A DNA stretch of 64,000 nucleotides, from contig NZ_CP037948.1 of NCBI RefSeq assembly GCF_004358425.1, positions 1,798,001 through 1,862,000 of the forward strand. Direction: 5' to 3'. Made by a program: the position numbers and the translations under genes. The notes beneath the pieces were generated by a model. It saw nothing but the letters and a program-made list of their open reading frames with translations, had not been told where the DNA came from and made no database searches. Below, piece by piece: positions 6,739-43,436 of the stretch (position 1 is the stretch's first letter; every line of letters begins with the position of its first letter). Origin of the DNA: Qipengyuania sediminis (GTDB lineage Bacteria; Pseudomonadota; Alphaproteobacteria; Sphingomonadales; Sphingomonadaceae).

Positions 6739-6975
6739 ATGGCCGATGCCACCGACGACCGCCTGCGCCTGCTGATTGAACGCGTGGAGCGTCTGGAAGA
6801 GGAGAAGAAGGGCATCGCCGACGACATCCGCGACGTCTATGCCGAGGCCAAGGCAGTCGGTTACGATACCAAGATCATGCGCCAGATCGTGCGCCTCAGA
6901 AAGATGAAGCCCGACGACCGGGCAGAGATGGAAGCCATCCTCGATACCTACAAGGCGGCACTCGGCCTCGGCTAA
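6739..6975 (+). CDS. GapR-like DUF2312 nucleoid-associated protein
   Basis: Small protein (78 residues from ATG 6739, [20 protein letters not shown]) of the DUF2312 family. The founding member, Caulobacter GapR, binds overtwisted AT-rich DNA as a dimer/tetramer and aids replication. Visible features are a long N-terminal amphipathic coiled-coil ([18 protein letters not shown]), the conserved [12 protein letters not shown] segment and a basic [10 protein letters not shown] patch. A frame extending 54 bases further upstream is open, but the family N-terminus fits 6739. It is divergent from pyk and followed by an SDR gene. Confidence 0.88.
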
Positions 6976-7033
6976 GCTTCGGAACCTCGCGGCCCCCCGC
7001 TCATAAGGTGAGCGAACCTGGAGTGAGGAAGCC

Positions 7034-7963
7034 ATGTCCAAGAAATCGAAAGCCAAGGGCAAGCACAAGGACAAGTCGGACAAGGGCCAGGCCCCGCCGG
7101 AAGCCGTCAAGGCCGCGGTCATCGCCGAAACCGGCGAAGAGCCCCGCATGCCCGGCAACGAAGCGGATATGCGGGACAAGCCCGACTGGCGGCCGCGCTA
7201 TCCCGGTTCGGGGCGGCTCGCCGGCAAGGTGGCGATCGTCACCGGCGGGGACAGCGGCATCGGGCGCGCCACCGCGATCCTGTTCGCGCGCGAGGGCGCG
7301 AAAGTCGCGATCAGCCATCTGGAAGAAGACGAGGACGCCGAGTTCACCGCCGAGCAGATCCGCCGCGAAGGAAGCGAGGCACTGATCCACCGCGGCGATC
7401 TGGGCGATCCCGAAGTCGCGAAGGCGCTCGTGCAGGAAACGGTCGGCAAATGGGGCCGGCTCGACGTGCTGGTGAACAACGCGGGCGAGCAGCATCCCGA
7501 CGAGGAGATCACCGACATCACCGTGGAACAGCTTCAGCGCACGTTCCAGACCAATATCTTTTCGATGTTCTATCTGGTCCAGGCCGCGCGCCCGCATCTC
7601 AAAAAGGGGGCGGCGATCGTGAATTGCACCAGCGTGACGATGTACAAGGGTTCGAAGGAGCTGCTCGACTACAGCGCCACCAAGGGGGCGATCACCGCCT
7701 TCACCCGCTCGCTGAGCGAGGCGCTGGTCGCCGACGGCATCCGCGTCAACGCAGTGGCCCCGGGGCCGATCTGGACCCCGCTCAACCCCATGGGGGGCGC
7801 CTCGCCCGAAAAGCTCGAGAGCTTCGGCGAGGACACGCCGATGGGCCGCCGCGGCGAGCCCAACGAGGTCGCCCCCGCCTTCCTCTTCCTCGCCTGCGAG
7901 GACAGCTCCTACATGTCGGGCCAGGTGCTGCACCCCAATGGCGGGACCATCGTCAACGGCTAG
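7034..7963 (+). CDS. SDR family oxidoreductase with Lys-rich N-terminus
   Basis: Short-chain dehydrogenase/reductase of 309 residues. Residues 1-25 are a charged Lys-rich tail (SKKSKAKGKHKDKSDKG). The Rossmann domain begins around residue 60 with VAIVTGGDSGIGRA, followed by NNAG (VNNAGEQ), an active-site Ser (NCTSVTMYKG) and the YSATK catalytic Tyr/Lys, then VAPGPIWTPL. The layout resembles the YhdF/YghA/glucose-1-dehydrogenase-like group often linked to general stress genes. The substrate is unknown. GAGGAAG lies 7 bases before the ATG. Confidence 0.9.
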   Translation: MSKKSKAKGKHKDKSDKGQAPPEAVKAAVIAETGEEPRMPGNEADMRDKPDWRPRYPGSGRLAGKVAIVTGGDSGIGRATAILFAREGAKVAISHLEEDEDAEFTAEQIRREGSEALIHRGDLGDPEVAKALVQETVGKWGRLDVLVNNAGEQHPDEEITDITVEQLQRTFQTNIFSMFYLVQAARPHLKKGAAIVNCTSVTMYKGSKELLDYSATKGAITAFTRSLSEALVADGIRVNAVAPGPIWTPLNPMGGASPEKLESFGEDTPMGRRGEPNEVAPAFLFLACEDSSYMSGQVLHPNGGTIVNG

Positions 7964-23780: not shown

Positions 23781-23867
23781 GCCCAGATGGCGGAATTGGT
23801 AGACGCACCGTCTTCAGGTGGCGGCGCTCGCAAGGGCGTGGAGGTTCGAGTCCTCTTCTGGGCACCA
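23781..23867 (+). tRNA. tRNA-Leu (anticodon CAG), integration site of the island
   Basis: 87-nt class II tRNA with encoded CCA. Acceptor GCCCAGA/TCTGGGC, D-arm GGCGGAATTGGTAGACGC, anticodon stem CCGTC/GGCGG with loop TTCAGGT (anticodon CAG), a long variable arm, T-arm GAGGTTCGAGTCCTC. The 3' 19 bases are repeated at 43419-43436, which marks it as the attachment site of the island that follows. Confidence 0.97.
23849..23867 (+). repeat. attL: tRNA-Leu 3' end
   Basis: Nineteen bases AGTCCTCTTCTGGGCACCA covering half of the T-arm, the acceptor strand and CCA. Matches 43419-43436 with a single-base indel in the GGG run. The gap from 23868 to the integrase start at 24082 has no other gene. Confidence 0.85.
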
Positions 23868-24081
23868 TTCGTTCTTCCGAGAGCTTCCGGAAAACATGGA
23901 CAAAATGGCGGATTTCTGCCATTTATGGCCCATCACTGGTCCGGATTTGTCTGCACGTTTCCGCACGCATCCGGGGCAAGCTGGGGGCAAAATCGAGCCC
24001 CTTGCCCCCAGCCGGAAATCGGCCTTGCCCCCACCCATGCGAATCCCGGCAGACCCGTCCGGCATGCAGATGGAGATTGCC

Positions 24082-25345
24082 ATGCCGTTGTCCGATACTG
24101 CGCTGCGGGCCCTGAAGCCGATGGAGCGGCGCTACAAGAAGGCCGACCAGCGCGGCCTCTATATCGAGGTCGAGCCGAACGGCTCGAAACTGTGGCGCTA
24201 CAAGTATCGCTTCGAAGGCTTGGAAAAGCGCATCGCACTGGGGCGGTATCCGGACGTTTCGCTGTCGCAGGCTAGGCGCAAGCAGGAGGACGCGCGGCGC
24301 ATGCTGGAGGACGGCAAGGATCCATCGCTTGAGCGGCGCAGGGAGCGCCTGATTGCATTCGGTCAGCGCCGAGAACACCTTTGGCGGCGTCGCGCGCGAA
24401 TACATTCAGCACAAGATGATCGGCGAGCAACGCGCCGAGGTCACCGTCGCGAAGGCGCGCTGGCTGTTGGAACAGCTCAGCCCGCTGGAGAGGCTGCCAA
24501 TCGCCGAAATTCGCGCCGTGGAAGTGCTGGCCGCACTTCGCCGCATCGAGGCCAAGGGCAAGCATGAGACTGCTCGCCGGTGCCGCTCCTTCTCGAGCCG
24601 AGTGTTCCGCTACGCGGTCGCCACATGCCGTGCCGAGAACGATCCTTCGGCGGTGCTGCGCGGCGCGCTGATCACCCCGAGGGTAACCCATCACCCGGCG
24701 CTGACCGACCCCAAGGCCGTCGGTGAGTTGCTCCGGGCGATCGACGACTATCCGGGCTCGATGATCACGCGCATCGCGATGCAGATCATCCCGCACGTGA
24801 TGTGCAGGCCCGGCGAATTGCGGTTGGCGGAATGGTGCGAATTCGATTTTGATGCGGCGATCTGGACCATCCCGCAGGGGAGGATGAAGATGCCCCGGCC
24901 GCATGCCGTGCCGCTTTCGAAGCAGGTTCTCGGCTACCTCGACGAGCTGCACGCATTGACTGGTCCCGGCGGGTTCGTTTTCCCGGCCTTCCACACCTTC
25001 AAGCGCCCGATGAGCGAGAACACTATCAACCAGGCATTCCGCCGGATGGGATACACGTCCGAGGAAATGACCGCGCATGGCTGGCGCACCACCGCCTCCA
25101 CGCTGCTCAACGAATCCGGCAAGTGGAACCCCGACGCGATCGAGCGCTCGCTCGCCCACGCCGACAGCAACGCGGTGCGGGGAACCTACAACCGCGGGCG
25201 CTATTGGGCGGAGCGGGTTGAGATGCACCAGTGGTGGAGCGACTACCTCGACCAACTCCGCAAGGGCGCGGATATCCTGAGGCCGGAGTTCGGGCGGGGC
25301 AGCGGCCCAGGGCACGCCAGGGATGTGGCTGCGATAAAGCGCTGA
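24082..25345 (+). pseudogene. P4-type tyrosine integrase (DUF4102), frameshifted
   Basis: The arm-binding N-terminal domain is read from ATG 24082: MPLSDTALRALKPMERRYKK, DQRGLYIEVEPNGSKLWRYK, ALGRYPDVSLSQAR, EDGKDPSLERRRERLIA. At about 24355-24358 an extra T breaks the frame. The rest (SVSAENTFGGVAREYIQHK onward) lies in the next frame to 25345 and keeps every catalytic residue: Arg in MCRPGELRLAEW, Lys in MKMPRPHAVPLSK, HGWRTT, the His of LAHADSNA and Tyr in GTYNRG. The catalytic part alone could only start at TTG 24353. The arm/catalytic split makes normal integration and excision unlikely unless frameshifting occurs. Confidence 0.9.
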
Positions 25346-29028: not shown

Positions 29029-29538
29029 TCAACCACGCCAGCCTGTCGAGAACCTTAGGGCGCGGAGCATGGTGAAAGTGTCGCAGCACTGCACGCCTAC
29101 GTCGGCACATATGTCCGGCACTCGCCTGTTCTGCCTTTGGAGACGGCGCTTCGACACCTCGGTGGTCACCACGCAGCGGTTGCCGGGATCGGCCAAAGCG
29201 TGAGCGATGAGGAACGGGTCGCGACCGATTGCTTCCAACTCGTCGTCAGTAAGGTCGGGTGCATATTGTCCCGTCACCTGCTGAACGAGCCGGGGCTCAA
29301 CGTCACCATCGAACAAAATCGCCGCTTTATGCGCGTCGTCATGCACCCATGCGTAGAGCAGGTCCTTATCGGCGTCGTTGCTCCCGTCCTTGACCTCTTC
29401 GAAGGTCTCGATCGGCATCTTGATGTTGCCAGCCTCGCCTTGGTGCGCGAGCCAATCCCAGAATTCCGGCACGGCATCGACCGGATAATAGAGATGGTGC
29501 GCGGTGATCAGGACGTTGGCATCGAGCAAGTAGAGCAT
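29029..29538 (-). CDS. DUF4411 family PIN-like toxin
   Basis: 169 residues. The N-terminus LYLLDANVLITAHHLYYP carries the first Asp of a PIN nuclease fold, followed by FWDWLAHQGEAGNIKMP, EEVKDGSNDADKDLLYAW, DPFLIAHALA and CVVTTEVSKRR. DUF4411 proteins are PIN-related ribonuclease toxins that pair with HTH-ImmA/IrrE proteins, exactly as here: the partner gene ends 4 bp upstream. Expected action is RNA cleavage when unneutralised. Confidence 0.86.
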   Translation of the reverse strand: MLYLLDANVLITAHHLYYPVDAVPEFWDWLAHQGEAGNIKMPIETFEEVKDGSNDADKDLLYAWVHDDAHKAAILFDGDVEPRLVQQVTGQYAPDLTDDELEAIGRDPFLIAHALADPGNRCVVTTEVSKRRLQRQNRRVPDICADVGVQCCDTFTMLRALRFSTGWRG

Positions 29539-29541
29539 GCG

Positions 29542-30747
29542 TCAGGCGCCTTGCTCGACGGACAGGGAGGCGCCGCTCAGCAAAGGATGTACGCTGCGCG
29601 GCTTCACGCCGAGAAGCTTGCCCGCGCGCGTCGGGGTAAGAACTCCCTCGCTCATGTTTCGGGCGACAAAGCTCAGCAATGCCGAGCCAAGCCGATGACG
29701 GCGAATGATGTAGTAATTCGGCCCGCCGTCTTGCCCGCGCGCGCGTTCGCGCTGGGCAGCGCGGTTGCGCAGCCACTCGCTCTTGAATGTTTCGGTCAGA
29801 TTGCGCCACGCACCCTGATTGAGCGCGCCAGCGCGGAAGAGCCGGTACGCCACCAGCGACCGGCTAACCAGGCGTTCGTTGGCGAATTCGGTGATCTGCC
29901 GGGCAATCTGTTGTTCATCGCCGCCGAGCTGGACGCGAAGTTGATTGAGCTCTCCCTCCGGCAGCAGGAAGCTGCTGGCCACGTCATTGCAGAACTGTTC
30001 GGTCGCGCCTTCGATGTGCCCACCGCTGACGCCAGTCGCCCCAATCCAGAGGTGCGCGACCTCGTGAAGCAGAGTGAATGACCAGGCGGTCTTTGCGTCC
30101 TGATCGTTGATGACGACAAAGGGCGCAATCGGATCGGCTAGAGCGAAACCTCGAAATGCATCGACGTCGATCGCGGAATGGTGACTGCCGAGATTGCCAA
30201 TTAGCAAGACATAGACGCCTGCCATTTCGACCTGTCGCCGGAGCATGCTGAAGGCGGCCTCGGCGGAACCTTGCGCGCGGAAGGCAGCAAGATCCAATCC
30301 GAAGGTTTTGCGGATCGAGGCCAGGACCGGGCCGACACCATCGTTGCGCGACATGGAGCCGACAAAGGCGAGCGGCTGCGCTTCCTCTTCCTCGACCAAG
30401 ACAGCGCGCACCATCGCCTGCCTAGACCGGATATCGCGCACCAGGGCATCGACAAGAGGTTCGCCGGCGGTGTGCTGGTCTGGCAGCGTGCGAAAATCTT
30501 CGCCGCGATCACCGCGCACGGGCGGCTCTTCGAGATAGAACGAAACGAGCGGACGCCGGTAAACCTTCGCCATCTTGAGCAGGATCGGGCGCGATACCTC
30601 GCCTTCCTCGGTTTCCAACGCCAGCAGCCGATCTTCGCCGGGCACGCCCCGCGCATCCCGAATGCCGACCTTGGCCGCCGCTTCCTCAAGCGAAAGCCCC
30701 GCGCTTTCGCGCGCCCATTTCAGGATCGAAGGCTTAACCACCGGCAT
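29542..30747 (-). CDS. XRE-HTH / ImmA-IrrE metallopeptidase-like antitoxin
   Basis: 401 residues from ATG 30747 (MPVVKPSILKWARESAGLSL). Residues ~8-65 form a helix-turn-helix (SLEEAAAKVGIRDARG, RPILLKMAKVYRRPLVSFYL). The C-terminal half is a DUF955 zinc peptidase: LLHEVAHLWIG has the HEXXH motif and TEQFCNDVASSFLLPE the third-ligand region. In DUF4411 pairs this protein is the antitoxin and probably autorepresses the operon; the peptidase may act on the pair or on another regulator. Order is antitoxin first, toxin second. Confidence 0.86.
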   Translation of the reverse strand: MPVVKPSILKWARESAGLSLEEAAAKVGIRDARGVPGEDRLLALETEEGEVSRPILLKMAKVYRRPLVSFYLEEPPVRGDRGEDFRTLPDQHTAGEPLVDALVRDIRSRQAMVRAVLVEEEEAQPLAFVGSMSRNDGVGPVLASIRKTFGLDLAAFRAQGSAEAAFSMLRRQVEMAGVYVLLIGNLGSHHSAIDVDAFRGFALADPIAPFVVINDQDAKTAWSFTLLHEVAHLWIGATGVSGGHIEGATEQFCNDVASSFLLPEGELNQLRVQLGGDEQQIARQITEFANERLVSRSLVAYRLFRAGALNQGAWRNLTETFKSEWLRNRAAQRERARGQDGGPNYYIIRRHRLGSALLSFVARNMSEGVLTPTRAGKLLGVKPRSVHPLLSGASLSVEQGA

Positions 30748-30815
30748 GCGATTGTCTTTCGCACAAAGTTCGGATGATGCGTGAGAAAAATGTGCTCCGA
30801 GACAAAAGCGACAGT

Positions 30816-31196
30816 CTACGGAGCATCGGTCGTTCTTCGAATGCAAAGGTCGCCAAGTTTGCGATGCTGGTCGAAAAGCCAGACCGTCTCAACCGAAGTC
30901 GTCAACACACCGTATTCTGCCACGATGATATAACGACTGACTCCACCTTGATACTCGCAGCCGTCTCCAAAGTACTGCGACTGCCCTTTTGCGAAAGTAC
31001 GATCATCACGCGATGAAATGCGCCAGTCCCGAGAAGAGGCCTCACGTTCCAGCGCTTCGACCGGTGAACCGATCGGAATGATCGCGAGGAGTCGTTCTTT
31101 CGTCGCTTCGTCCCCGCCCCAGACCAGAGGTGGGCCACAAGATGAGAGAGCTGCCAATAGAGCGAGGGGCAGAAAGCGGCGGCGAATGCTAGGCAT
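30816..31196 (-). CDS. Small lipoprotein, hypothetical
   Basis: 126 residues. The signal MPSIRRRFLPLALLAALSSC has a lipobox (LSSC), so the mature protein starts at Cys20 and is membrane-anchored. The mature part (for example LLAIIPIGSPVEALEREASS and YIIVAEYGVLTTSVETVWLF) resembles small SmpA/BamE-like folds only vaguely. Not recognised. One of three consecutive exported small proteins on this strand, with higher A/T than the core genome. Confidence 0.62.
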   Translation of the reverse strand: MPSIRRRFLPLALLAALSSCGPPLVWGGDEATKERLLAIIPIGSPVEALEREASSRDWRISSRDDRTFAKGQSQYFGDGCEYQGGVSRYIIVAEYGVLTTSVETVWLFDQHRKLGDLCIRRTTDAP

Positions 31197-32263: not shown

Positions 32264-32647
32264 ATGTTTGAACGAATTCGGAAATGGCTGTCTCGCCCTT
32301 CGGCCCTTGAACGCTGGTCAGTTCGCATAGAGTCTGACCACATCGTCACGGCTGATGGCTATGGCGAATTGCGCTATCTCGCAATTGCCGATCTAACCAA
32401 GATCGTTGTCGCTACGGATGACAGCGGACCTTGGGGAGCCGATGTCGTCTATCTGCTCCATGGGGTAGGCCCAGACCCTGTCGGCATGTTCCCATTAGAA
32501 GCAACAGGCTGTCAAACGTTCGTCGAATGGTTGAGCCAGCGAGCGGGATACAACGATCGAGAGCATCGTCGCGCGATGGGCTCAACGCGAGTGGCGCGGT
32601 TCACCATTTTTGAGGCGGCACCGGCTGATCAAACCATTAGCAGCTGA
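32264..32647 (+). CDS. Hypothetical cytosolic protein
   Basis: 127 residues from ATG 32264 (MFERIRKWLSRPSALERWSV). Mostly beta: RIESDHIVTADGYGELRYLA, ADLTKIVVATDDSGPWGADV, then a helix TFVEWLSQRAGYNDREHRR and a final strand. No signal peptide. The pattern (DHIV, Gly-Pro-Trp-Gly) recalls small immunity-like or PH-like domains, but I cannot assign a family. Its 3' end overlaps the converging recombinase stop by 19 bp. Confidence 0.58.
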   Translation: MFERIRKWLSRPSALERWSVRIESDHIVTADGYGELRYLAIADLTKIVVATDDSGPWGADVVYLLHGVGPDPVGMFPLEATGCQTFVEWLSQRAGYNDREHRRAMGSTRVARFTIFEAAPADQTISS

Positions 32648-33825
32648 ACCGCGTCGCCAATCTGCTGCGCCGCATCAAGCAGGTGGTCATCGTCCAGGTG
32701 CGCGTAACGGGCCGTGGATTGATGGTTCGCATGACCGAGCAGCCTCCCGATCATCGGTAGCGTTTCCTTGTTCATGGCGGCGTGGCTAGCGAAGGTGTGT
32801 CGCAGATCATGGATGCGGACATGGCCGAGACCTGCGCGTTCGCGGATGCCTTTCCAGGCCCAGGCCAGATCGCGCATTTGCCGACGGTAGCGGTAGTTCC
32901 AGAACAGCCAAGGCAGTTTTTTGTGGCGCGGAATGTCGCCGATCACCTCGCGCGCGGCGGAGCCGAGCCAGACGGTGCGCGGGCCAGTCTTGCTATCGCG
33001 CAGGTTCAGCCGATTTCCCTTCACGTCGCCCCAGTGCAGATTAAGTATCTCCCCCCGGCGACAACCGGTCAGCAGCAGCAGGGTGATTGCCGCGCCCTCG
33101 CAGCGGGCGGTCAGGTCGTCGCTCTCCCGTAGTTTCGCGAGCTCGATGCCGATCCGCCCCAGTTCCTCAACCGTCAAAAACCGCTCGCACTGGCGTTTGC
33201 GGTTCGGTCGGATTGAGCGGCACGGGTTGGTATTCTCCAGCCGATACCCCCACGCCTCAGCCTTGTTGAGCATGTGTTTGAGGATTTCGAGGGTCCGATT
33301 GGCTGCCCCCGGACCCGTCCGGTTGTTGAGCTCGGCAAACCACTTAGTCACATGCTCTTCGTTGACCTCGTCGATGAAGACGCCTTTAAAGGCGTCGTCG
33401 AGGTAGAGCCGCCGGTAGCGTGTGTGGGAATCAAGCGTCGAAGCTTTCCAGCGCGGCGACCAGCGGGTCCAGTATTCCTCAAGGAAATCGTCGAACCTCG
33501 GCGCGGATCGAATGCGCTTGCGATCGGTGGCCGGATCGCGCCCCACCTGCGCGTAGGCAATGACGCGACGTGCGACCATCTGAGCCTGATGGCGCGTGAG
33601 TACTGACGCAGGGCCAATGGTGACAGTGCGCAGCCTGCCACCCATCCGTGTCTGCACGATGTAGACGTTCCGTCCGCTAGGATAGTGACGGATACCGAAG
33701 CCGTGCTCGATCCCGAGCCAAGTGGTTGTCCGCGCCTTGCCCTTTGGAACGAGCCTGAAGTTTACCGATGCGCCAACCTCGGCCAGCGCCTCTTCGACAA
33801 TGCGCTTGAGGCTAGCGGCTGTCAT
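32629..33825 (-). CDS. Tyrosine recombinase, second of an overlapping pair
   Basis: 398 residues, intact. SAM-like core-binding domain (FDDFLEEYWTRWSPRWKAST) then the catalytic domain with Arg in LLTGCRRGEIL, Lys in LRDSKTGPRTV, HDLRHTFASHAA, GHANHQSTARYAH giving His and the nucleophilic Tyr. The N-terminal arm (YPSGRNVYIVQTRMGGRLRT, TIGPASVLTRHQAQ) is of the phage-integrase arm type. ATG 33825 overlaps the upstream recombinase stop (ATGA), so the two are translationally coupled and may act as a heteromer. Confidence 0.93.
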   Translation of the reverse strand: MTAASLKRIVEEALAEVGASVNFRLVPKGKARTTTWLGIEHGFGIRHYPSGRNVYIVQTRMGGRLRTVTIGPASVLTRHQAQMVARRVIAYAQVGRDPATDRKRIRSAPRFDDFLEEYWTRWSPRWKASTLDSHTRYRRLYLDDAFKGVFIDEVNEEHVTKWFAELNNRTGPGAANRTLEILKHMLNKAEAWGYRLENTNPCRSIRPNRKRQCERFLTVEELGRIGIELAKLRESDDLTARCEGAAITLLLLTGCRRGEILNLHWGDVKGNRLNLRDSKTGPRTVWLGSAAREVIGDIPRHKKLPWLFWNYRYRRQMRDLAWAWKGIRERAGLGHVRIHDLRHTFASHAAMNKETLPMIGRLLGHANHQSTARYAHLDDDHLLDAAQQIGDAVQLLMV

Positions 33826-35135
33826 GACCGCAGTCCGATCGCCTGTGCCAGTGAGCCTGAAATGCGTTCGGCGGCATCGCCGATCACGTCATCGGACAGA
33901 TGCGCGTACTTTGCTGTTGTTTCCGGCAAGACGTGGCCAAGCAGCTTGCCGATAGTGGCGAGTGGCACATTGTCCATGATCGCGGTCGAAGCGAAGCTGT
34001 GCCGCAGATCGTGGACGCGCAAATCGGGCATCGCGCAGCGTCGGCGCAGATTGTACCACCACGGCTCGATGTTGACCGGGTGCTTGCCCCGTGAGTTGAC
34101 GAACACCAGCGCGTCGTCTTCACCGCGCTCAAACCCTGCCAGTATCTCCAGCGCCTGAGAGTTGAGCCAGATGACCTTCGGTCCAGTCTTGCTGTCGGGC
34201 AGCACGAGCCGGGGCGGCTTCACCATTCCCCATCGAAGAAACCTAATCTCGCCCAACCGTGCGCCGGTAAACATCAGCAGCCGCACTATCGCGACCGGGA
34301 TGGGATGCTCGGCCTCAGCCTCACGCAAGGCCGCGCCCAAGCGGCGATACTCTGCGGGTGTGAGGTATCGCTCCATCTTCGGGCGTTTGAAGCGCGGCAT
34401 TCCTCGGCAAGGGTTCGATCCCTTGCGCCGCATCCGCAGCGCCTCGGCGTATTTCATGAGGGAGGCGAGAACCGGCACGGCGCGGTTGAAGCTCGTTTCG
34501 CCTGCCCCGGAGCAACCGTCACGCCAGCGGTGGATGTCGGCGGGCATGATGTCCGCCACCCGCATCTCGCCAAATTCCGGCTCGATGGAAAGCCGCCACG
34601 CGTTCCGGTTGCGCTTGACTGTCGAAGGCTTCCAGACCCGCGAAAGGTCATCCCAATACGTCTCGACGAAGTCGGTAAGCGTCGGCGTGGCATTGACCAC
34701 GGCACGCTTGGGCAGACCGTCCAGCGCCACCTCGGCCAGAATGCGCCGCGCCTGCGATCTGGCCACTGCCGCGTCAAGCTCGTCAGTGCGACCAAGCGAA
34801 ATCCGGCGATGCTTGCCGCGATGTCGTACGCGGACAAACCAGAAGTAATTGCCGCTCGGCCTGACGCGCAGGCCGAACCCGGCAAGCTCGGTATCCCAGA
34901 TGCAGTATTCGGTCTCGCGAAGCGGCAGCTTGCGCCGCGCGAAATTGCCATCGAGCAGTGCCCGGCGCCCGGGCTTTCGCCGCCTGGGGACCATATGGCA
35001 ATCGTCACTAGCAAAACTGCCCTCAAAAGTCGCAGAATTACCGTTATTTGCGGGGACCGGATGGCCTTCAACAGCATGCCTGCTGCCGAGCACTTCCAGC
35101 ATCTCACGCACTGATTTTACGGCATTTTTTCCCAT
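33822..35135 (-). CDS. Tyrosine recombinase, first of an overlapping pair
   Basis: 437 residues, intact. After a divergent N-terminus come the arm domain (DTELAGFGLRVRPSGNYFW, RHRGKHRRISLGRTDELDA), a core-binding domain (LTDFVETYWDDLSRVWKPST) and catalytic residues: Arg in FTGARLGEIRFL, Lys in PDSKTGPKVI, HDLRHSFAST, GHVLPETTAKYAH. The start lies 17 bp inside the 14-bp core repeat at 35153, so this recombinase gene abuts a candidate recombination site, the usual arrangement for integrases. It is followed by a second recombinase with a 4-base overlap. Confidence 0.93.
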   Translation of the reverse strand: MGKNAVKSVREMLEVLGSRHAVEGHPVPANNGNSATFEGSFASDDCHMVPRRRKPGRRALLDGNFARRKLPLRETEYCIWDTELAGFGLRVRPSGNYFWFVRVRHRGKHRRISLGRTDELDAAVARSQARRILAEVALDGLPKRAVVNATPTLTDFVETYWDDLSRVWKPSTVKRNRNAWRLSIEPEFGEMRVADIMPADIHRWRDGCSGAGETSFNRAVPVLASLMKYAEALRMRRKGSNPCRGMPRFKRPKMERYLTPAEYRRLGAALREAEAEHPIPVAIVRLLMFTGARLGEIRFLRWGMVKPPRLVLPDSKTGPKVIWLNSQALEILAGFERGEDDALVFVNSRGKHPVNIEPWWYNLRRRCAMPDLRVHDLRHSFASTAIMDNVPLATIGKLLGHVLPETTAKYAHLSDDVIGDAAERISGSLAQAIGLRS

Positions 35136-35293: not shown

Positions 35294-35882
35294 CTAAAGC
35301 GACAGCACGTGCGGCCTCAACACATCGACCGTTTCCACCAGCCCCGCCGCTTCCATGTCCAATAGGAGCAGGTCCGGTGTTTTCTCGGGCCGCTGGAAAC
35401 GTTCGCACATGCGCCGGATCGCCGCGACCGCGCGGCCGGGGTCCAGCTCGATTGTGTCGGCAATGAAGGCGTCAGTCCCGCGCGGCTCGATGCCCGCCTT
35501 TGCCAGGATTGCTTCGGGGAAGTCCTTCAGGTTGTCGGTCACGATCGTCGCGGCGCGCGTCTTCATCGCCGCCGCCAGGACATGAGCGTCGCCCGGATCG
35601 GGCAATCCGTCACACAGCGGAACGAACGTGTCGAACTCGTCCACCATGGCATCGGCGAAGTCCTTCTCCATGGCGGCACGCGCACGACTGGCACGCTCCA
35701 TGGCATCTTCCGCGCCTTTGCCGGCAAGGATGCCTTCGATCGCTCGCTGGACCGTCGAGCACCGGCGCGGACCAACGGAGCCGGAAGAACTCTGCCTCGG
35801 CGAGCGTGAGCAGCAGGTTGCGCTTCAACGCTCCCGCAAGCGCGCAGGCCTCGACAAAGACGGTATAGCGATTGGCGAACAA
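35294..35882 (-). pseudogene. PIN-domain (VapC-like) toxin, frameshifted
   Basis: From ATG 35882 the frame reads MFANRYTVFVEACALAGALK and LTLAEAEFFRLRWSAPVLD, then shifts near 35755. It resumes as TVQRAIEGILAGKGAEDAME, GLPDPGDAHVLAAAMKTRAA, IVTDNLKDFPEAIL and GTDAFIADTIELDPG to 35294. The joined protein is a PIN-family RNase of about 195 residues with the DPGDAHVLAAA acidic site intact. The break separates its N-terminal catalytic strand from the rest, so the toxin is probably dead. The antitoxin gene ends 4 bp upstream. Confidence 0.82.
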
Positions 35883-35885
35883 GGT

Positions 35886-36341
35886 TCAGAGCTGGTCGGC
35901 GTCGAGCCGCGCCAGCTCATCGAGCGCGGCTTCGCGTTCGGCGTTCCGCGCTCGCTTGTACGCGAACAGGTCCTCCGCCTTGATCCGCCGATGCCGGCCG
36001 GTCAGCGAATAGGCGATCTCGCCCTTTTCGAGCAGCCCGATGAGATAGGGCCGCGACACGTTGAGAATGTCGGCGGCCTGTTGGGTGGTCAGCATCTTGC
36101 CGACCGGAACGAGCGTGACCGCATCGCCCTGGCTGATATGCCGCAGCAACTCCATCAGCAGGTTCGACAGCGCCGGGGTGACCGTCACTTCCGTCGGCTT
36201 GCGATCCTCTTCCAGCAGGCGCAGCGTCGCATCGCCCGTGGCATGAGCGGCCAGTATCTTGCGCAGTTGGTTCGCCGCGGCCTTCTCGTCGGCGGAAGGA
36301 AGGCGAGCGCCAAGCTCTTCGGCATAGGCTGGGATGGTCAT
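35886..36341 (-). CDS. Excisionase-type HTH antitoxin
   Basis: 151 residues. The C-terminal half is a MerR/excisionase-like DNA-binding domain: VGKMLTTQQAADILNVSRPY, LIGLLEKGEIAYSLTGRHRR, IKAEDLFAYKRARNAER. The N-terminal half (ADEKAAANQLRKILAAHATG, TVTPALSNLLMELLRHISQG) probably binds the PIN toxin. This HTH/PIN arrangement is a common proteobacterial toxin-antitoxin pair. The antitoxin is intact while its toxin is frameshifted. Confidence 0.85.
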   Translation of the reverse strand: MTIPAYAEELGARLPSADEKAAANQLRKILAAHATGDATLRLLEEDRKPTEVTVTPALSNLLMELLRHISQGDAVTLVPVGKMLTTQQAADILNVSRPYLIGLLEKGEIAYSLTGRHRRIKAEDLFAYKRARNAEREAALDELARLDADQL

Positions 36342-36524: not shown

Positions 36525-37844
36525 GTGATGGTTCTCTCAACAGATGTCCGTAGGGATAAGCTGAGCGACATAAAGGCATCAGGCGAAAGCCAGGGCAAGC
36601 AGAAGCTCTACTATATGGGTGAGACCCAAAGCTTCGATGTCTATCGGATAGACCTAAATTATCTAATCTACAATCGACACAACGGCCGTATCGAGGCCGA
36701 GATGCTAACATGGGAGCAGGAGAACGCTGCGCCGGTCGGCACTTACGACGATGAACTTCATGAGAAGATCGGCACGTTCCTGTGGGAGTCGAACAAGGGA
36801 CGCAACAAGACGACCCTTGCCGACCTGAGCAGCAAAGGTCAGCAGAAGCCCGGCATCGTGAGCCTCGATGGCGTGATCATCGACGGTAACCGGCGGGCCA
36901 TGCTGCTCCGGAAGCTCGAGGGCGAATCCAAGAGCAAGCAGTATTTCGACGCAATAATTCTTCCGCATGCCTACGCCGACAACCAGGCCGAGATCGTGCG
37001 TTTGGAGACGCAGTATCAGCTCGGCGAGGATGCGAAGGTCGAATACGGCCCGCTACAGAAATACCTTCATGCCCGCCGTCTGCACGATGATCTCAACATC
37101 AGCGCTGAAGAGATTGATACCTTGATGGGCGAGCCTCGTGGCAACACGAACAAGCTGCTCAAGATCATGCAACTAATGGACGACTATCTTGAGCATATTG
37201 GATGCCCGAAACTTTACCTCATGCTCAAGGATAGCGATGGCACGAAGGAAGGCATGTTCGTCGACCTGTACGCCGATCTGAAGCGGATCGAGGAAGGGAG
37301 GGCAAAAATCCCTTGGGCTTTCGATCCAGAGATCGATCCATTGCAGCTTCGCCTCATCCAGTTCGATTACATCCGGCTGGGCGACTTCGCGGACGCGAAG
37401 AAGGTCTACCGTGAGATTTCGCATCAAGGGAAGGACCGGAATTTCTTCGCGAACAAGGACATCTGGGAGCAATTCCGGGATAGCCACACCGCCGAAGTCG
37501 ATCCCATCACGATGGAGATGGGCACGCTAGAGGCCTACATCGCAGCCGATCCAGACGCGTTCGCGACAAAAGTAGATGCAGCCCGAGCGCGCGACAAATC
37601 GTGGAGCGCCAAGGTGAGCGGGCCGATGAAGAGGAACTTCGGCCAGTCGAGTTACAAGCTCGGCTTGGCGACGGAGGTCCTGAAGCCCGGTGAGTACCTA
37701 AAACGCGCGAAGGATCAGCTCGACAAGATAGATCTTGACAGCGATGCTCTCTTGTCATCGCCGGAAAATGAGGCCCTGGCCGTCGAGATCGGTCGCATTG
37801 CGTACAACATCAAGAAGCGCTTCGACCGTCGGGCCTCCAAATAG
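36525..37844 (+). CDS. ParB/sulfiredoxin-fold protein of the defence cassette
   Basis: 439 residues from GTG 36525 (ATG 36528 is the next codon). The N-terminal half has a ParB-like nucleotide site: SFDVYRIDLNYLIYNRHNGR, then GIVSLDGVIIDGNRRAMLLR (the GxxR-type loop). After it come LETQYQLGEDAKVEYGPLQK, ISAEEIDTLMG and NTNKLLKIMQLMDDYLEHIG, resembling the ParB ENxxR helix and central HTH. The rest is helical. ParB folds bind CTP or cut DNA; which applies is unknown. It leads a three-gene + strand operon with a helicase and a nuclease. Its role in the cassette is inferred. Confidence 0.72.
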   Translation: MMVLSTDVRRDKLSDIKASGESQGKQKLYYMGETQSFDVYRIDLNYLIYNRHNGRIEAEMLTWEQENAAPVGTYDDELHEKIGTFLWESNKGRNKTTLADLSSKGQQKPGIVSLDGVIIDGNRRAMLLRKLEGESKSKQYFDAIILPHAYADNQAEIVRLETQYQLGEDAKVEYGPLQKYLHARRLHDDLNISAEEIDTLMGEPRGNTNKLLKIMQLMDDYLEHIGCPKLYLMLKDSDGTKEGMFVDLYADLKRIEEGRAKIPWAFDPEIDPLQLRLIQFDYIRLGDFADAKKVYREISHQGKDRNFFANKDIWEQFRDSHTAEVDPITMEMGTLEAYIAADPDAFATKVDAARARDKSWSAKVSGPMKRNFGQSSYKLGLATEVLKPGEYLKRAKDQLDKIDLDSDALLSSPENEALAVEIGRIAYNIKKRFDRRASK

Positions 37845-37861
37845 CGTAGGCGGTCAGCCCG

Positions 37862-39826
37862 ATGGTCACGATCAAATATGATCCAGCGGACGAGCTGCTG
37901 GTCCTGCGCGGCGCGGGGCCAGCCATCAGGCATCCGCTCCTTGCGGCGTTCACTCGTCAGATTGGCGGTTCGGTCGATGATGAAGGGGCGCTTCGCATCC
38001 CCACTGCCGCCGAGGAGCTCACCGGCCACTATCAGACCCTCTCACGCCTCTTGGCGAAACTCGCCATCGAGATCGACACGGGCGGCCATGTTTCCGACGC
38101 GCTGGACCGGGTAGAAACGGAAGAGCGGCAATTCCTCGAGTTTTCCCGACAGGCCCGCGAAATATGGGATGCGCAGATAGACACTGAGGCCTTCCGTCGC
38201 TTCGTCGCGGTCGTCGAAGAAGCCTGCCCCGGCCGCACCTTCTATCGTAAGCAGCTACTATCGGCTTTCCATCTGGCCTTCTCACAGAACGCCTGCAACT
38301 TCTCGGTTCCGGGCGCAGGCAAGACTTCGGTCGTCTATGCGGCCTACGCGTATCTCCGACACCTACCACCCGAAGACCCCAAGTCGGTCGACCGCCTCCT
38401 GATCATCGGACCGCTCTCCTCGTTCAAGGCCTGGGAGGACGAGTTCGCGTCCATCTTCAACCTTAAGCCCGTGTCGCGCCGCTTGTCGGGCGGCGTGTCC
38501 ACTCTGGACCGGACCGATCACCTCCGCGGAATAAGCGTCAATTCCCGATCGACGGAGCTGACGCTCACCACATACCAGACGCTCGCCAACATGGAGGAGG
38601 AGTTCCGCACCTTCCTCACGCGGGTAGGGACCCGCGCGATGGTGGTGTTGGACGAGGCCCACTACATCAAGAGTGGCGATGGACTGCAGGCGGCGGCCGC
38701 GTTGCGGCTTGCCCCGCTCGCCCGTTCGCGAGTGGTGCTCACCGGAACGCCGGCGCCTAACGGGTATGAGGACCTCGCGAACCTTTTTCGGTTCATCTAC
38801 CCGACCCGCAACATCATTGGGTTCCCGACCGCCTCCCTCCGCGCGATGACAGACGGCTCGATGCCCAATGCAATTCCCGAGCTGAAATCCAAGATCGAGC
38901 CGTTCTACACGCGCATCCGCAAAAGCGATCTGTCGCTACCTGACGCAGATGAACTGCGCGTCTCCGTTCTCATGTCGGCGGATCACGAGCGAATCTACCG
39001 CAGCCTCGAAAACAGGATCGTGCCACATCTGAAGCAGCAGCTCGATGATCCTTCCGCGCCGATCAGGGTTCGCGCGAGGCTGATCCGCCTTCGTCAAGCG
39101 GCGGTGAACCCAGAACTTTTGCTGCGTCCCCTCGAAACCGACGACGGCATCTTTGACACTGGCGGAAGCGGCGACCTCAACATCGCCGGACTCGAAGTCG
39201 CCGAGCTGATAAGGAACTTCTCCGCCAAGTCGGAGCTCGGCCGTCTTGCGGTATGTAGGACCTTGATCGCCGACGTCCTGGCTGAACAAGGAAAGGTCCT
39301 GGTCTGGTCCTACTTCCTTGGGAATCTCGATCTCCTCCGACGTGGCCTGAGCGACCTTGCACCGTTCATCGAGGTCCTCACCGGAGCGACGCCGGTGGTT
39401 GGTCGTGAGGATGACGGGGCGGCGGAGCTTGGAACGCGTGAGGACATCATTGACCGGTTTCACGCGACGAAGGATCGAGCGATCCTGATCGCGAACCCGC
39501 AAGCTGTGGGTGAGTCGATCTCGCTGCACAAGGCTTGCAGGACGGCCATCTACTTTGACCGGGATTTCAATGCGGGCCGCTTCATCCAGTCGAAGGACCG
39601 TATACATCGATACAATCCGGATGGTAGTGGGCTCGTCACCTATCACCACCTGGTCACGCCGGGCACGGTTGATCAAGACATTGACGCGCGGCTCACGGTG
39701 AAGGAACGCCGCCTCGCCGACTTGGTGGACAAGGATGACATACCGCTGTTGACGGCCGCCGATGACGGCGATCTCACCGATCTGCGCGCGCTTCTGGAGG
39801 CCTATGAACGTCGCAAGGCCCAGTGA
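37862..39826 (+). CDS. SNF2-type DEAH-box helicase/ATPase of the defence cassette
   Basis: 654 residues. An N-terminal ~130-residue domain precedes the motor. Motif I: FSVPGAGKTSVVYAAYAYL; Ia region LLIIGPLSSFKAWEDEF; motif II: VVLDEAHYIKSGDG; motif III: VVLTGTPAPNGYEDLANLF; motif IV region KVLVWSYFLGNLDLL; V-VI: NPQAVGESISLHKA and GRFIQSKDRIHRYNP. This is the Swi2/Snf2 double-stranded DNA translocase arrangement also used by many restriction-linked helicases. The start is 17 bp after the ParB-like gene and its end overlaps the nuclease gene. Confidence 0.9.
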   Translation: MVTIKYDPADELLVLRGAGPAIRHPLLAAFTRQIGGSVDDEGALRIPTAAEELTGHYQTLSRLLAKLAIEIDTGGHVSDALDRVETEERQFLEFSRQAREIWDAQIDTEAFRRFVAVVEEACPGRTFYRKQLLSAFHLAFSQNACNFSVPGAGKTSVVYAAYAYLRHLPPEDPKSVDRLLIIGPLSSFKAWEDEFASIFNLKPVSRRLSGGVSTLDRTDHLRGISVNSRSTELTLTTYQTLANMEEEFRTFLTRVGTRAMVVLDEAHYIKSGDGLQAAAALRLAPLARSRVVLTGTPAPNGYEDLANLFRFIYPTRNIIGFPTASLRAMTDGSMPNAIPELKSKIEPFYTRIRKSDLSLPDADELRVSVLMSADHERIYRSLENRIVPHLKQQLDDPSAPIRVRARLIRLRQAAVNPELLLRPLETDDGIFDTGGSGDLNIAGLEVAELIRNFSAKSELGRLAVCRTLIADVLAEQGKVLVWSYFLGNLDLLRRGLSDLAPFIEVLTGATPVVGREDDGAAELGTREDIIDRFHATKDRAILIANPQAVGESISLHKACRTAIYFDRDFNAGRFIQSKDRIHRYNPDGSGLVTYHHLVTPGTVDQDIDARLTVKERRLADLVDKDDIPLLTAADDGDLTDLRALLEAYERRKAQ

Positions 39827-40769
39827 CGGCCTACTTCCTGCTGGGTCGACCATCACAATGGTCCAGCTTCTGGCAGACCGCCCTAATGGGGCCCCTATAG
39901 ATCACCTCTTGCGAGACTTGGCGGCGGCCACCCCGATATCCTGGTCCAAAGGACGGAACACGGTTGCAAAACTAATCGCTTATGGGCTGTTCGAACCTAC
40001 CGCGGAATCGTCTGTCCGGCTGACTGATCGAGGCCAACAGGACTGGCGGAAGTGGATCGCAGACCGGATCATCTTGGATTTTACGGCCTTGCTGACACGG
40101 GCTGATGCCTGGTCCTGTATTGCTCGTGATCCGGTGACCGGGGACCTGACAATCGACGCCAGGATCCTCCCTCCCATCCGTGACGGATTGGCGGTGTGGG
40201 TGACCGATTTCGAGATCGCGCATCGCGCTTCCGTCCAAGCCCGCTTCTGGAAAGTGTCGGACGAGTACACGGGCGCTTTCATTACTGGAGCGCGGAATGC
40301 GAACGGGAAGGCGCTATGTCGGGCGAAGTCAGCCGAACGCCTCGCTGACGATCTCGCGCGGCAGGCTGAGGCAGGCGCGGCGGCCGAGGCATGGGTCGTC
40401 AAATACGAACGCGATCGACTGTGCGATCATCCGTTGCGCGATCAAATCCGCCAGATCTCTGCAGAAGATGTGGCGGCAGGATATGACATCGTGTCCTTCG
40501 CTTCGATCCTCTCGATCCGCCACGATCGTTTCATCGAGGTGAAGTCCCACGGCGAAACGAAGGTTTTCCACTGGTCACGCAATGAGATCGCGACCGCGGT
40601 GGAGTTCGGCGAAGAATACGCACTCTACCTGGTGGATCGCAATCGGTGCGAACAGCCGGGATATGAGCCGCATGTGATAACCGGGCCCACCCCAGAGATG
40701 TTCGCATTGCCTGACAGCGGTTGGCGCGTGGAAGCTACATCGTTTGAGCACGTCGCCATATCGGACTGA
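39804..40769 (+). CDS. DUF3883-like PD-(D/E)XK nuclease of the defence cassette
   Basis: 321 residues from ATG 39804, overlapping the helicase end by 23 bp. N-terminal winged-helix-like part (DHLLRDLAAATPISWSKGRN, KLIAYGLFEPTAESSVRLTD). The C-terminal part is a nuclease domain: GYDIVSFAS, RFIEVKSHGETKVFHWSRNE (E-x-K core and the Asn-Glu motif), EFGEEYALYLVDR. This matches the DUF3883/NO VEIN endonuclease pattern found with helicases and methyltransferases. Likely the effector that cuts DNA. Converges with vsr, whose stop lies 3 bp further on. Confidence 0.78.
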   Translation: MNVARPSDGLLPAGSTITMVQLLADRPNGAPIDHLLRDLAAATPISWSKGRNTVAKLIAYGLFEPTAESSVRLTDRGQQDWRKWIADRIILDFTALLTRADAWSCIARDPVTGDLTIDARILPPIRDGLAVWVTDFEIAHRASVQARFWKVSDEYTGAFITGARNANGKALCRAKSAERLADDLARQAEAGAAAEAWVVKYERDRLCDHPLRDQIRQISAEDVAAGYDIVSFASILSIRHDRFIEVKSHGETKVFHWSRNEIATAVEFGEEYALYLVDRNRCEQPGYEPHVITGPTPEMFALPDSGWRVEATSFEHVAISD

Positions 40770-40772
40770 GCT

Positions 40773-41192
40773 TCAGCCCAGCCGGCGCGGGCCCAGGAAG
40801 TCGGTCAGCCGTTTCGCCAAATCAACTGTGTCGCGTGTCTCGCACTCCCAGATCGTCATGATCTCCCAACCGAGCGCCGTGGCCGCGCGCTCAAGTCGCT
40901 CGTCCCGTTCTCGGTTTCGCGCAAACTTAGCCTCCCAAAACTCTGTTCGCGTGGACGGTGTATGAGAGAGGTGACAGCCGTGTGCGTGCCAAAAACAGCC
41001 ATGCACTTGAACGCAGCGCCGTCGGGCTGGGAATGCGACATCCGGCCGACCGGGCACGCCCGCAAATTGAGTGCGGAAACGATATCCCAATCCGTGGAGC
41101 AGGCGGCGGACCACGAGTTCGGGTTTGGTGTTCGCCCTTCGGATGCGCGCCATGTGCGCGCTCCGTTGCTCCCTTGTCAGCCGATCTGCCAT
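40773..41192 (-). CDS. vsr: Very short patch repair endonuclease
   Basis: 139 residues. Vsr nicks next to T:G mismatches created by deamination of 5-methylcytosine. Motifs: LTREQRSAHMARIRRANTKP, LGYRFRTQFAGVPGRPDVAF (catalytic Asp), VQVHGCFWHAHGCHLSHTPS (HGCFWH, zinc Cys/His), RTEFWEAKFARNRERDERL, and WEIMTIWECETRD. It lies between the nuclease and the methyltransferase; such partnership with a C5 methyltransferase is normal in type II systems. The start is 31 bp after the methyltransferase stop. Confidence 0.95.
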   Translation of the reverse strand: MADRLTREQRSAHMARIRRANTKPELVVRRLLHGLGYRFRTQFAGVPGRPDVAFPARRRCVQVHGCFWHAHGCHLSHTPSTRTEFWEAKFARNRERDERLERAATALGWEIMTIWECETRDTVDLAKRLTDFLGPRRLG

Positions 41193-41223
41193 CCAGCCGA
41201 TATAGGAGCGAAGTCTCGGATAT

Positions 41224-42891
41224 TCACGGCGCCGATGTCCCCAAGGTTTCCCCTGGTTCCTCGCGCACGTGCGCCGCTAGGATTGGATTGATCCGAGACG
41301 CGATGAGCAGTCCAGCCAAGATCAGGCTCGGGTTGCGTTGGAGCTTGGCCACACCAGGAATATCCTCGAGCCTGTCGCCATATTCGTGCTCAAGGGCCGA
41401 GATGATCAGGCGTTGCGACTCCTCGTTGTGATTGGCCAGAGCGCCGATCAGCCTTGAACCCGCTTCGCTGAGCTTGTCCAACACCATGAATGGCCGGGTG
41501 CCGCCGGGACCGCGATGGGCCCAGACCGTCTGAAGGTTCTGGACGTCAGCCTCCGACATGAAGCGACCTAGATCGTCCAGCGGTCCGTTCACAGCGTCCG
41601 CTAGGTCGGTGGACATCTCGGATGTTAGGCGGCGTGCCAACTCACGGTCGAGTGTAAGGCTTTGGATCGCCTTCGACGTCCCGAAGTAAAACGCGACTTC
41701 CCACTTGACGCCCGGACCGTTGTTATCGTTCCGGAACTCGAAGCGGACGCCGCTCTTCAACTGTAGGCTCGGTATAGCAAACCGGAAAGTCCGGGTGGCT
41801 GGGTAACGCGCTCCGGCGCGATCTGCCGGTGTCTCCGTGGGCGCCGGTACCGGTCGGACCAACTCCTTAGCCACCTCCGGTAATGGCGGCACAATGTCCG
41901 CCGGGTTTCCTTGGAGCGCATGTCCCATCAGATAGGCGAACGCGGGCGGCACGGCGTTACCAATCATACGCAGCTTCTGGCCGTAGCTAGCACCATAAAA
42001 TTGGAAGGTTATTGGAAAGCCTTGTAGACTGGCACGTTCGCGGAGGGTCAGCCGCCTAAATTCATCCTCATCGGAGCCGGTCGCGATGACAATGCTCTCG
42101 CGTGACACGCGTGTGCATGTCGCTGTGATGGTCCGGACGGTCCTGTCTAAGGGGTCTGGGAACGGCATAGCGTTGTAGACGGTATGCGTCGTCTTGTTCG
42201 CTCGATTGATCCGAACCTCCTCCGAATTGAGGACGTCCTCTTCCACGTGATCGGTCAAATCCTTCCGGGGTAGCGAGATTCCGAAGATCGGATCCACCAC
42301 TGGCTCGGCCTTCAGGGCGCGGATCACGTCCCCCAGCAGGCGAGGCTCGGCCGCGCTGCGGTAGGACTCGAGGAAACCGATATTGAAATTGCCGGCGATG
42401 CACCGACGCCGGCGCTGCGGCAGACCGTAGTCCGCCATGTCAATAATGTGGGTCACACAACCCAAGCTGGCGAATTCCTCTAGCGCGCCACCCTTCTGCA
42501 ATTCCGCCTCGATGATCTTCGCCACGCGAGGCACATTCTCCATTGCCCAAATCCGGGGCTTCAAGTGATCGACTATTGTGAGAAAGCGCTTCACATCCTC
42601 CAGACCGTCCGCGATGTCGCCGCCACCGCCCCGGTTGCTGAAAGAGAATTGAGTGCATGGAGGGCTTCCGACGACGATATCTATGTCACTGGGCAGGTCC
42701 GCGAGCGCGAGCCGGCGGATATCAACGGTCTGCGCTTGGTGCGAATTATTCTTGAAGTTCGTCTCGTTGGCGGGTCCCCATTTTTCATAGGATGCGACAA
42801 CGTCGACACCAGCCAAGCGGAGACCTAGGGACCACCCACCCACGCCAGAATAGAGGTCAATCGCCCTCGGCCTTCGTGGTTTCCGACCCAT
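41224..42891 (-). CDS. C5-cytosine DNA methyltransferase with C-terminal extension
   Basis: 555 residues from ATG 42891 (GGAG 5 bases before it; a further ATG at 42921 lacks this). Motif I RAIDLYSGVGGWSLGLRLAG, motif IV GSPPCTQFSFSN (catalytic Cys), VI RIWAMENVPRVAKI, VIII GLPQRRRRCIAG, a target-recognition region, IX RASLQGFP and X GNAVPPAFAYLMG. The family normally ends near residue 345. The next ~210 residues (YPATRTFRFAIPSLQLKSGV, ELARRLTSEMSTDLADAVNG, GVAKLQRNPSLILAGLLIAS) match no domain I recognise. The target sequence is unknown. The modification arm of the cassette. Confidence 0.92.
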   Translation of the reverse strand: MGRKPRRPRAIDLYSGVGGWSLGLRLAGVDVVASYEKWGPANETNFKNNSHQAQTVDIRRLALADLPSDIDIVVGSPPCTQFSFSNRGGGGDIADGLEDVKRFLTIVDHLKPRIWAMENVPRVAKIIEAELQKGGALEEFASLGCVTHIIDMADYGLPQRRRRCIAGNFNIGFLESYRSAAEPRLLGDVIRALKAEPVVDPIFGISLPRKDLTDHVEEDVLNSEEVRINRANKTTHTVYNAMPFPDPLDRTVRTITATCTRVSRESIVIATGSDEDEFRRLTLRERASLQGFPITFQFYGASYGQKLRMIGNAVPPAFAYLMGHALQGNPADIVPPLPEVAKELVRPVPAPTETPADRAGARYPATRTFRFAIPSLQLKSGVRFEFRNDNNGPGVKWEVAFYFGTSKAIQSLTLDRELARRLTSEMSTDLADAVNGPLDDLGRFMSEADVQNLQTVWAHRGPGGTRPFMVLDKLSEAGSRLIGALANHNEESQRLIISALEHEYGDRLEDIPGVAKLQRNPSLILAGLLIASRINPILAAHVREEPGETLGTSAP

Positions 42892-43063
42892 ACCTACTCC
42901 CGAACGAATACGCGCGGGCACCCTTCAATAGATCCTTCCCGCCAATTGCAAGATCTTTTCACGATCGCCTTTGGCTGATCGACGCACGCGGCGCGCGCCC
43001 TACCGGACATTTCGACCATGCGCGCATTCCGGTTTGGGCCGACACACCGGTCCTACCCTAAGC

Positions 43064-43418: not shown

Positions 43419-43436
43419 AGTCCTCTTCTGGCACCA
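43419..43436 (+). repeat. attR: displaced tRNA-Leu 3' end
   Basis: AGTCCTCTTCTGGCACCA, matching the last 19 bases of tRNA-Leu (23849-23867) except for one missing G. It is not part of a functional tRNA here: no anticodon arm precedes it. Marks the right end of the island; core genome glycosyltransferases resume 146 bp later. Confidence 0.85.

Follow-up and report, generated by a model that had tools for sequence, protein, structure and literature searches.

Why should a gene for a ParB-like protein, a kind of protein familiar from chromosome partition, stand in front of a SNF2-family motor and a predicted nuclease, with all three converging on vsr and a cytosine methyltransferase? This arrangement occurs in Qipengyuania sediminis, in a stretch of 64,000 nucleotides (NZ_CP037948.1, positions 1,798,001 to 1,862,000) that we call the window and in whose coordinates all window positions are given, and it had been proposed from the letters alone to be a new five-gene defence cassette. 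Our analysis suggests a methylation-guarded, motor-driven restriction system of unusual build, set on a module that is portable among restriction-modification systems; the case is drawn from sequence comparison, and we regard it as evenly balanced between right and wrong. The five genes are the following.

36525..37844, + strand: ParB-like gene, 439 residues, open frame; ParB nucleotide domain and helix-turn-helix (HTH) at about residues 37-316, then a helical C-terminus
37862..39826, + strand: SNF2-family motor, 654 residues, open frame; PF00176 (SNF2-rel_dom), E 6.4e-22
39804..40769, + strand: predicted NOV_C/DUF3883 nuclease, 321 residues; winged helix (about 10-81) and PD-(D/E)XK-type C-terminus; PF13020, E 1.7e-12
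40773..41192, - strand: Vsr endonuclease, 139 residues; Pfam Vsr, E 2e-27; TIGR00632, 135.8 bits against a cut-off of 97.85
41224..42921, - strand: C5-cytosine methyltransferase; PF00145 (DNA_methylase), E 7.8e-40 over residues 20-335; inner ATG at 42891, the start taken in the original prediction

The open reading frame (ORF) reading of the window returned all five genes, each open, where the original prediction had placed them, and the coordinates agree with the 17-bp gap between the ParB-like and SNF2 genes, the 23-bp overlap (-23 bp) of SNF2 and NOV_C, and the convergence of the three + strand genes on vsr and the methyltransferase of the - strand. The overlap is given by the ATG at 39804; a longer NOV_C frame begins at 39762. 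Pfam names four of the five proteins, the ParB-like protein being the exception, and Pfam matches together with alignment of homologues confirmed that the motifs of motor, nuclease and methyltransferase are intact.

We compared 47 loci, of which 38 were found with ParB-like queries (L008-L032 and L053-L065) and nine with a SNF2 query (L033-L041); the latter were hand-picked, and as at least L041 is also a ParB-like match, the two sets are not independent. Plasmid records contributed 4 of 67 ParB-like matches and 9 of 67 SNF2 matches, hand-picked for variety, phage records one of four, and genome regions 13, omitting the two weakest (G536 and G588), while all 18 viral loci and both genome_contigs loci were taken. 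Near-copies (L016/L017/L026, L019/L020 and L028-L030/L032/L038/L039) inflate the counts. The closest relative, a Sphingomonas metagenome-assembled genome (MAG; L008), carries all five genes in identical order and on identical strands at 93, 89, 75, 84 and 80% identity. L009, a Hyphomonas MAG, retains the ParB-like protein at 63%, SNF2 at 61%, NOV_C at 38% and the methyltransferase at 52% identity, the last split over two frames, and gave no Vsr match. Next come Streptococcus phage Javan191 (L010) and similar viral contigs; L010 matches the window at 36% for the ParB-like protein, 41% for SNF2 and 39% for NOV_C (166 residues, C-terminal part). As its methyltransferase is only 26% identical, this branch retained the trio but either replaced the methyltransferase or let it diverge much further. 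As a separate observation, L009 also holds a 268-residue ORF (6828-7634, + strand) 354 bp upstream of the ParB-like gene, which by eye has the look of an unconfirmed Mrr-type nuclease and has no solved relative.

The pairing of the first two genes is the most constant feature of this set. A ParB-like match is present in 37 of the 38 ParB-query loci (L064 is without), three of which (L026, L027 and L032) end in or just past the gene. Where sequence continues beyond it, a same-strand SNF2 gene comes next in 31 of 34 ParB-found loci, with the matches -37 to +153 bp apart, and in one further locus (L031) SNF2 is interrupted by another ORF. Conversely, a ParB-like gene lies directly upstream of SNF2 in nine of nine SNF2-found loci, broken in L037. 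NOV_C follows the pair in 27 of 41 loci, in L034 behind a transposase gene, and the third genes that were scanned carry PF13020 in nine of ten cases, the tenth being cut by a contig end. L008 and L009 share the 23-bp SNF2/NOV_C overlap, which measures 26 bp in L010, L015 and L022, and intergenic distances are short or negative in all 15 systems tabulated. Because the ParB-like/SNF2 tandem recurs in named Pseudomonadota and Bacillota records, and the SNF2/NOV_C overlap recurs as well, the arrangement is more than chance. Judged by this recurrence, the conserved unit is ParB-like plus SNF2, usually with NOV_C. The expectation that the genes would co-occur elsewhere was therefore borne out for the trio, and in L008 for all five, but the five-gene cassette did not survive as a unit: Vsr is optional and the methyltransferase exchangeable (C5, N4/N6 or type III). 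The ParB-like gene is rare in sampled genomes (7 of 385 for the class, 7 of 396 for the order and 5 of 398 for the phylum, own genome and weak matches counted), and many of the loci lie on plasmids or viral contigs. A correlation of the ParB-like and SNF2 trees (r 0.979, 22 systems) is uncorrected for shared ancestry and was dropped as proof of co-evolution.

What, then, accompanies the module? In 32 of 41 loci, similarity within the fetched stretch identified a methyltransferase (C5 in 18, N4/N6 in seven, type III mod in seven), at 43 to 5888 bp from the ParB-like gene where the distance was measured. Among the nine others, a type I (L011) and a C5 methyltransferase (L014) are annotated farther off, and three (L017, L058 and L065) are represented by short contigs. 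Restriction enzymes, counting Res, could be recognised in 28 of 41 loci: a BanI/DpnII-like gene upstream of the ParB-like gene in ten (by Pfam on four, L015 below cut-off, the others by BLAST), a PADLOC REase_II-type gene in five (E 2.8e-19 in L036, the others 58-67% identical to the L036 gene), a BglII-like gene in three (L057 above cut-off, L061 and L062 below), MutH/Sau3AI in two (L025 by Pfam, L040 by annotation) and type III Res in eight. As a restriction-enzyme gene precedes the module in many relatives, the module gives the impression of a general accessory to restriction-modification systems, and as the ParB-like/SNF2 pair accompanies restriction of several different chemistries, it probably does not itself read the methyl group. 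In a SNF2 tree of 34 rows, which omits L017, L019, L029-L031, L037, L039 and L058 (near-copies or broken), the partner class changes seven times, compared with a minimum of three and a shuffled mean of 14.7. The window, L008 and L009 cluster there with L010 and the viral C5 systems, not with other alphaproteobacterial ones; this grouping, together with the Streptococcus host of Javan191, points to transfer between phyla and partner exchange.

The same linkage would accommodate a module that is a helper and not a cutter, in which clamp and motor strip proteins (anti-restriction, replication or packaging complexes) or process cut ends, blocking repair of the cleaved invader. Three lineages place a type II restriction-enzyme-like gene directly upstream of the ParB-like gene, often overlapping it, and type III Res brings its own helicase and nuclease, with the ParB-like and SNF2 genes kept there and NOV_C not; the unconfirmed Mrr-like ORF of L009 would be a further upstream partner. 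In the window, however, Pfam, PADLOC and NCBIfam recognise no restriction enzyme of the partner kinds among the five proteins, Vsr apart, so there would be nothing to help, and NOV_C keeps its full D-ExK-E set (see below); we consider a pure helper rather unlikely.

Two of these partner arrangements deserve mention in their own right. In L036 (1256-2122 and 5471-6337) and L060 (4193-5053 and 6543-7448) there are two related restriction-enzyme-like genes each, one beside the C5-methyltransferase and one upstream of the ParB-like gene, and the methyltransferase-side copy of L060 is a full match to PADLOC REase_II. Read by eye, the ExK position is QK in the ParB-side copies, ELK in the other copy of L036 and AVK in the other copy of L060, from which activity cannot be told. 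In the Enterococcus plasmids L011, L012 and L041 the pair is preceded by a gene for 860-883 residues that has no Pfam match (L011 scanned) and that two of the three records annotate as a sigma-factor-like HTH protein.

The ParB-like protein of the window has no match in Pfam, PADLOC, NCBIfam or PHROGs models, and neither NCBIfam nor PADLOC recognises those of L010, L028, L036 and L057. The profile of the window protein nevertheless matches ParB of solved structure (E 0.005) and its predicted structure resembles Noc, ParB and KorB, which are CTP-switch clamps; both comparisons recover the order of a ParB-type protein, a nucleotide domain followed by an HTH, in keeping with the ParB-fold nucleotide site originally predicted. 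The likeness is confined to these two domains, about residues 37-316. Unlike ParB, Noc and KorB, the window protein has a long helical C-terminus, and no ParA was observed beside the window cassette (parS was not searched for). A further difference is that the position aligned to E93 of M. xanthus ParB, the Glu of GERR, is Asn in 32 of 32 ParB-like proteins; an excerpt of PMC9178275 describes defective CTP hydrolysis when E93 is changed.

A ParB fold would also suit maintenance or regulation, with the ParB-like protein partitioning or silencing mobile-element DNA and the genes serving their carriers (plasmids, phages and islands) and not defence. The many plasmid and viral loci are in line with this, as are the motor's best PHROG, the phage DNA helicase family phrog_62 (E 1.1e-57), and ParA-family genes annotated in the plasmid loci L013, L014 and L033, in L014 about 1 to 3 kb upstream of the ParB-like gene. 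Linkage to methyltransferases and restriction nucleases at the frequencies given above would be unexpected for partition genes, however, and no ParA gene was identified among the Pfam-scanned neighbours of the window cassette, making such a role very improbable in our estimation.

The motor has intact sequence motifs: Walker GKT, D-E-x-H and Q-S-x-D-R-I are retained in 34 of 34 homologues, and the protein additionally matches the helicase-core ResIII model of Pfam (E 1.7e-5). No NCBIfam model scores above cut-off, and in PADLOC and NCBIfam the similarity to ZorD (40.4 bits, cut-off 1500), DrmD (34 bits, cut-off 610), DpdE and others is partial and far below the NCBI cut-offs. A relative likewise gives weak NCBIfam matches to DISARM, Zorya and Dpd SNF2 proteins.

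As for the nuclease, D228, E245, K247 and E261 of NOV_C, the D-ExK-E set, are invariant in 24 of 24 aligned proteins, a winged helix is seen in the predicted structure, and DUF3883 is termed a restriction endonuclease (REase) domain in an excerpt of PMC3710099. Since no conventional restriction enzyme is recognised in the window, NOV_C is the likely cutter there besides Vsr. The NOV_C profile matched no restriction enzyme among solved structures. A tblastn search of plasmids with the window NOV_C protein gave no match, yet plasmid loci carry distant NOV_C genes. Co-variation of regions was also considered as a route to the recognition element: relative to L009 and L010 the N-terminus of NOV_C varies most but shows no clear decoupling from the target recognition domain of the methyltransferase, and this candidate was dropped.

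The closest solved relative of the methyltransferase is M.HaeIII (E 1.4e-18). Vsr was recognised in six of 18 C5 loci (L008, L016, L018 and L034-L036) as well as in the window, and in none of the seven N4/N6 or seven type III loci, a confinement that, in small numbers, is as expected if Vsr repairs deaminated 5-methylcytosine (5mC). The methyltransferase carries a C-terminal extension of ~225 residues (41224-41901, - strand) common to the window, L008 and L009. This conserved extension, which has neither a Pfam family match nor a solved-structure relative, or else Vsr, whose PADLOC model is labelled a type II nicking endonuclease, might be the unrecognised enzyme of a classical type II or nicking system with the trio as an unrelated neighbour. 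No D-ExK pattern was seen by eye in the extension, though, and the trio recurs with different methyltransferases and is therefore no chance neighbour; we judge this explanation improbable.

How does the locus compare with known systems? Relatives of the module adjoin type II enzymes of the BanI/DpnII, BglII and MutH/Sau3AI kinds and methyltransferases. Such enzymes are not known to need ATP or a motor. They diverge beyond recognition, and none is recognised in the window. Closest in logic are CglI and NgoAVII, in which excerpts of PMC4267653 and PMC5737866 describe a site-specific, NTP-dependent system that combines a C5-methyltransferase and a nuclease with a separate SF2 ATPase and whose cleavage depends on both proteins and on NTP hydrolysis. 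The window has the same three components, its methyltransferase gene through the PF00145 match above, but differs in the nuclease, in the ATPase domains and in having a ParB-type protein; no PLD or B3 family of the kind found in the CglI/NgoAVII nuclease, which is PLD-type with a B3 DNA-binding domain, occurs in the Pfam or NCBIfam matches of the five proteins. In lactobacilli, type III mod and res are followed directly by the ParB-like and SNF2 genes, with NOV_C missing from type III loci; among the five window proteins there is no N6_N4_Mtase, EcoP15I-type or Res endonuclease domain. SNF2 proteins of DISARM, Zorya and Dpd are among the best PADLOC matches of the window motor (the best 25 of 29 were considered, and for the methyltransferase the best 25 of 59). 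None of the other genes typical of DISARM, Zorya or Dpd was recognised among the five, however: the proteins belong to families other than drmA, drmB and drmC, their Pfam and NCBIfam matches include no ZorA/B family, and no pglZ or brxC of BREX, the flanking genes having been partly scanned for the DISARM and BREX genes. The earlier statement that the cassette matches neither BREX, DISARM nor type III systems thus stands, their characteristic genes being absent from the five proteins, and it is in line with a ParB-like protein that lacks a named PADLOC or NCBIfam model and a motor below every NCBIfam cut-off.

Searches of open-access literature aimed at the trio or its parts yielded no recognised description of it. 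A lead to SpyI of S. pyogenes Phi1207.3 (PMC4260502) was set aside because SpyI is described there as LlaJI-like, with ParB and SNF2 genes other than those considered here; the excerpt of PMC8011034 concerns a different Vsr/C5-methyltransferase neighbourhood with two-component-like genes, and the trio does not figure in those of PMC12839542 (BREX), PMC10853773 (Dnd), PMC5512222 (polyvalent proteins), PMC6098607 or PMC3459991.

In order to rationalise the gene content as a restriction system, we propose that the methyltransferase would mark host sites and thereby protect the host, while Vsr would repair the T:G mismatches left by deamination of 5mC. When unmarked DNA enters, the nucleotide-bound ParB-like protein would read the DNA through its HTH, close as a clamp and recruit the SNF2 motor, a loading or licensing step that we infer; the motor would then translocate on the DNA and NOV_C would cut. 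Clamp loading and sliding combined with a translocating motor could give processive action from a starting site, and where a partner enzyme is present (BanI/DpnII-, BglII- or MutH-like, or type III Res), the module might extend or finish its work. In its most general form, which we advance only tentatively and as doubtful, a ParB-type nucleotide-gated sliding clamp with a SNF2 motor may be a DNA-tracking immune add-on for 5mC, N4/N6 and type III systems, with cutting by its own NOV_C in the majority, and so represent a clamp-centred class of motorised restriction.

Several observations weigh against a motor-driven restriction system. As the Glu of GERR is replaced by Asn throughout, the ParB feature for CTP hydrolysis is lacking, and the ParB-like clamp may not cycle like ParB. 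The predicted structure of NOV_C is weak overall (pTM 0.47), and its fold search gave, in the rows shown, mostly winged-helix matches without a restriction fold; yet NOV_C would make up the whole restriction half in the window, where no other restriction enzyme was recognised. NOV_C is also absent from 14 of 41 loci: its absence beside type III Res would fit a partner equipped with a nuclease, but the MutH-like loci and those with the unknown gene of about 860 residues are without it too. SNF2 is absent in two of 34 loci, with the weak ParB-like relatives L056 and L059, Vsr was recognised in only a minority of the C5 loci, and the window methyltransferase shares only 26% identity, over 214 residues, with that of L010.

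In its favour, the core module recurs next to restriction systems that otherwise have nothing in common, in distantly related bacteria, on plasmids and on viral contigs, and NTP-dependent systems with a separate ATPase are already described (CglI and NgoAVII). If the proposal is correct, DNA clamps of the kind used in chromosome partition would also serve bacterial immunity, and some restriction systems thought to be simple enzyme pairs would carry a motor module, which would bear on how some of them withstand anti-restriction proteins or stop phage DNA repair. It would also name a gene family missed by Pfam, PADLOC, NCBIfam and PHROGs models, and allow a direct test of where the clamp loads, whether at sites that lack methylation, at breaks or at its own site.

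Finally, the surroundings of the cassette indicate how it came to this chromosome. Three features bound the region.

23849..23867, + strand: attL, the 3' end of the tRNA-Leu(CAG) gene (23781-23867)
43419..43436, + strand: attR-like repeat located at the G+C step; duplicates the tRNA-Leu 3' end but is one base shorter
23818..25345, + strand: tyrosine integrase next to tRNA-Leu; its arm-binding and catalytic parts occupy two different frames and are not joined

A repeat search with the tRNA-Leu 3' end gave two matches in the window and none in 100 shuffles, and G+C drops from ~0.66 to 0.58-0.64 across roughly 24.5-43.3 kb. Besides the tRNA-side integrase there are two tandem tyrosine recombinases (32629-35135, - strand) with a 4-bp overlap. 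By the G+C drop, the att repeats, the integrase at the tRNA and the tandem recombinases, the region is a 19.6-kb element integrated at tRNA-Leu that carries the cassette as cargo at its right-hand end and may have lost autonomous mobility, since the integrase parts lie in different frames. The gene on the right flank has homologues of at most 50% identity in other genomes of the genus. The same island holds a DUF4411 (PIN-like) gene directly 3' of an ImmA/IrrE-type HTH-peptidase gene (29029-30846, - strand), likely a toxin-antitoxin-like pair, and adjoining the cassette are a PIN_3-like gene (below cut-off) and an HTH_17 gene (35294-36341, - strand), likely a toxin-antitoxin pair with a perhaps shortened toxin. 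Elsewhere in the window, an AT skew of -0.34 falls together with a 946-residue ORF (52557-55397, + strand) that reads as hydrophobic by eye.

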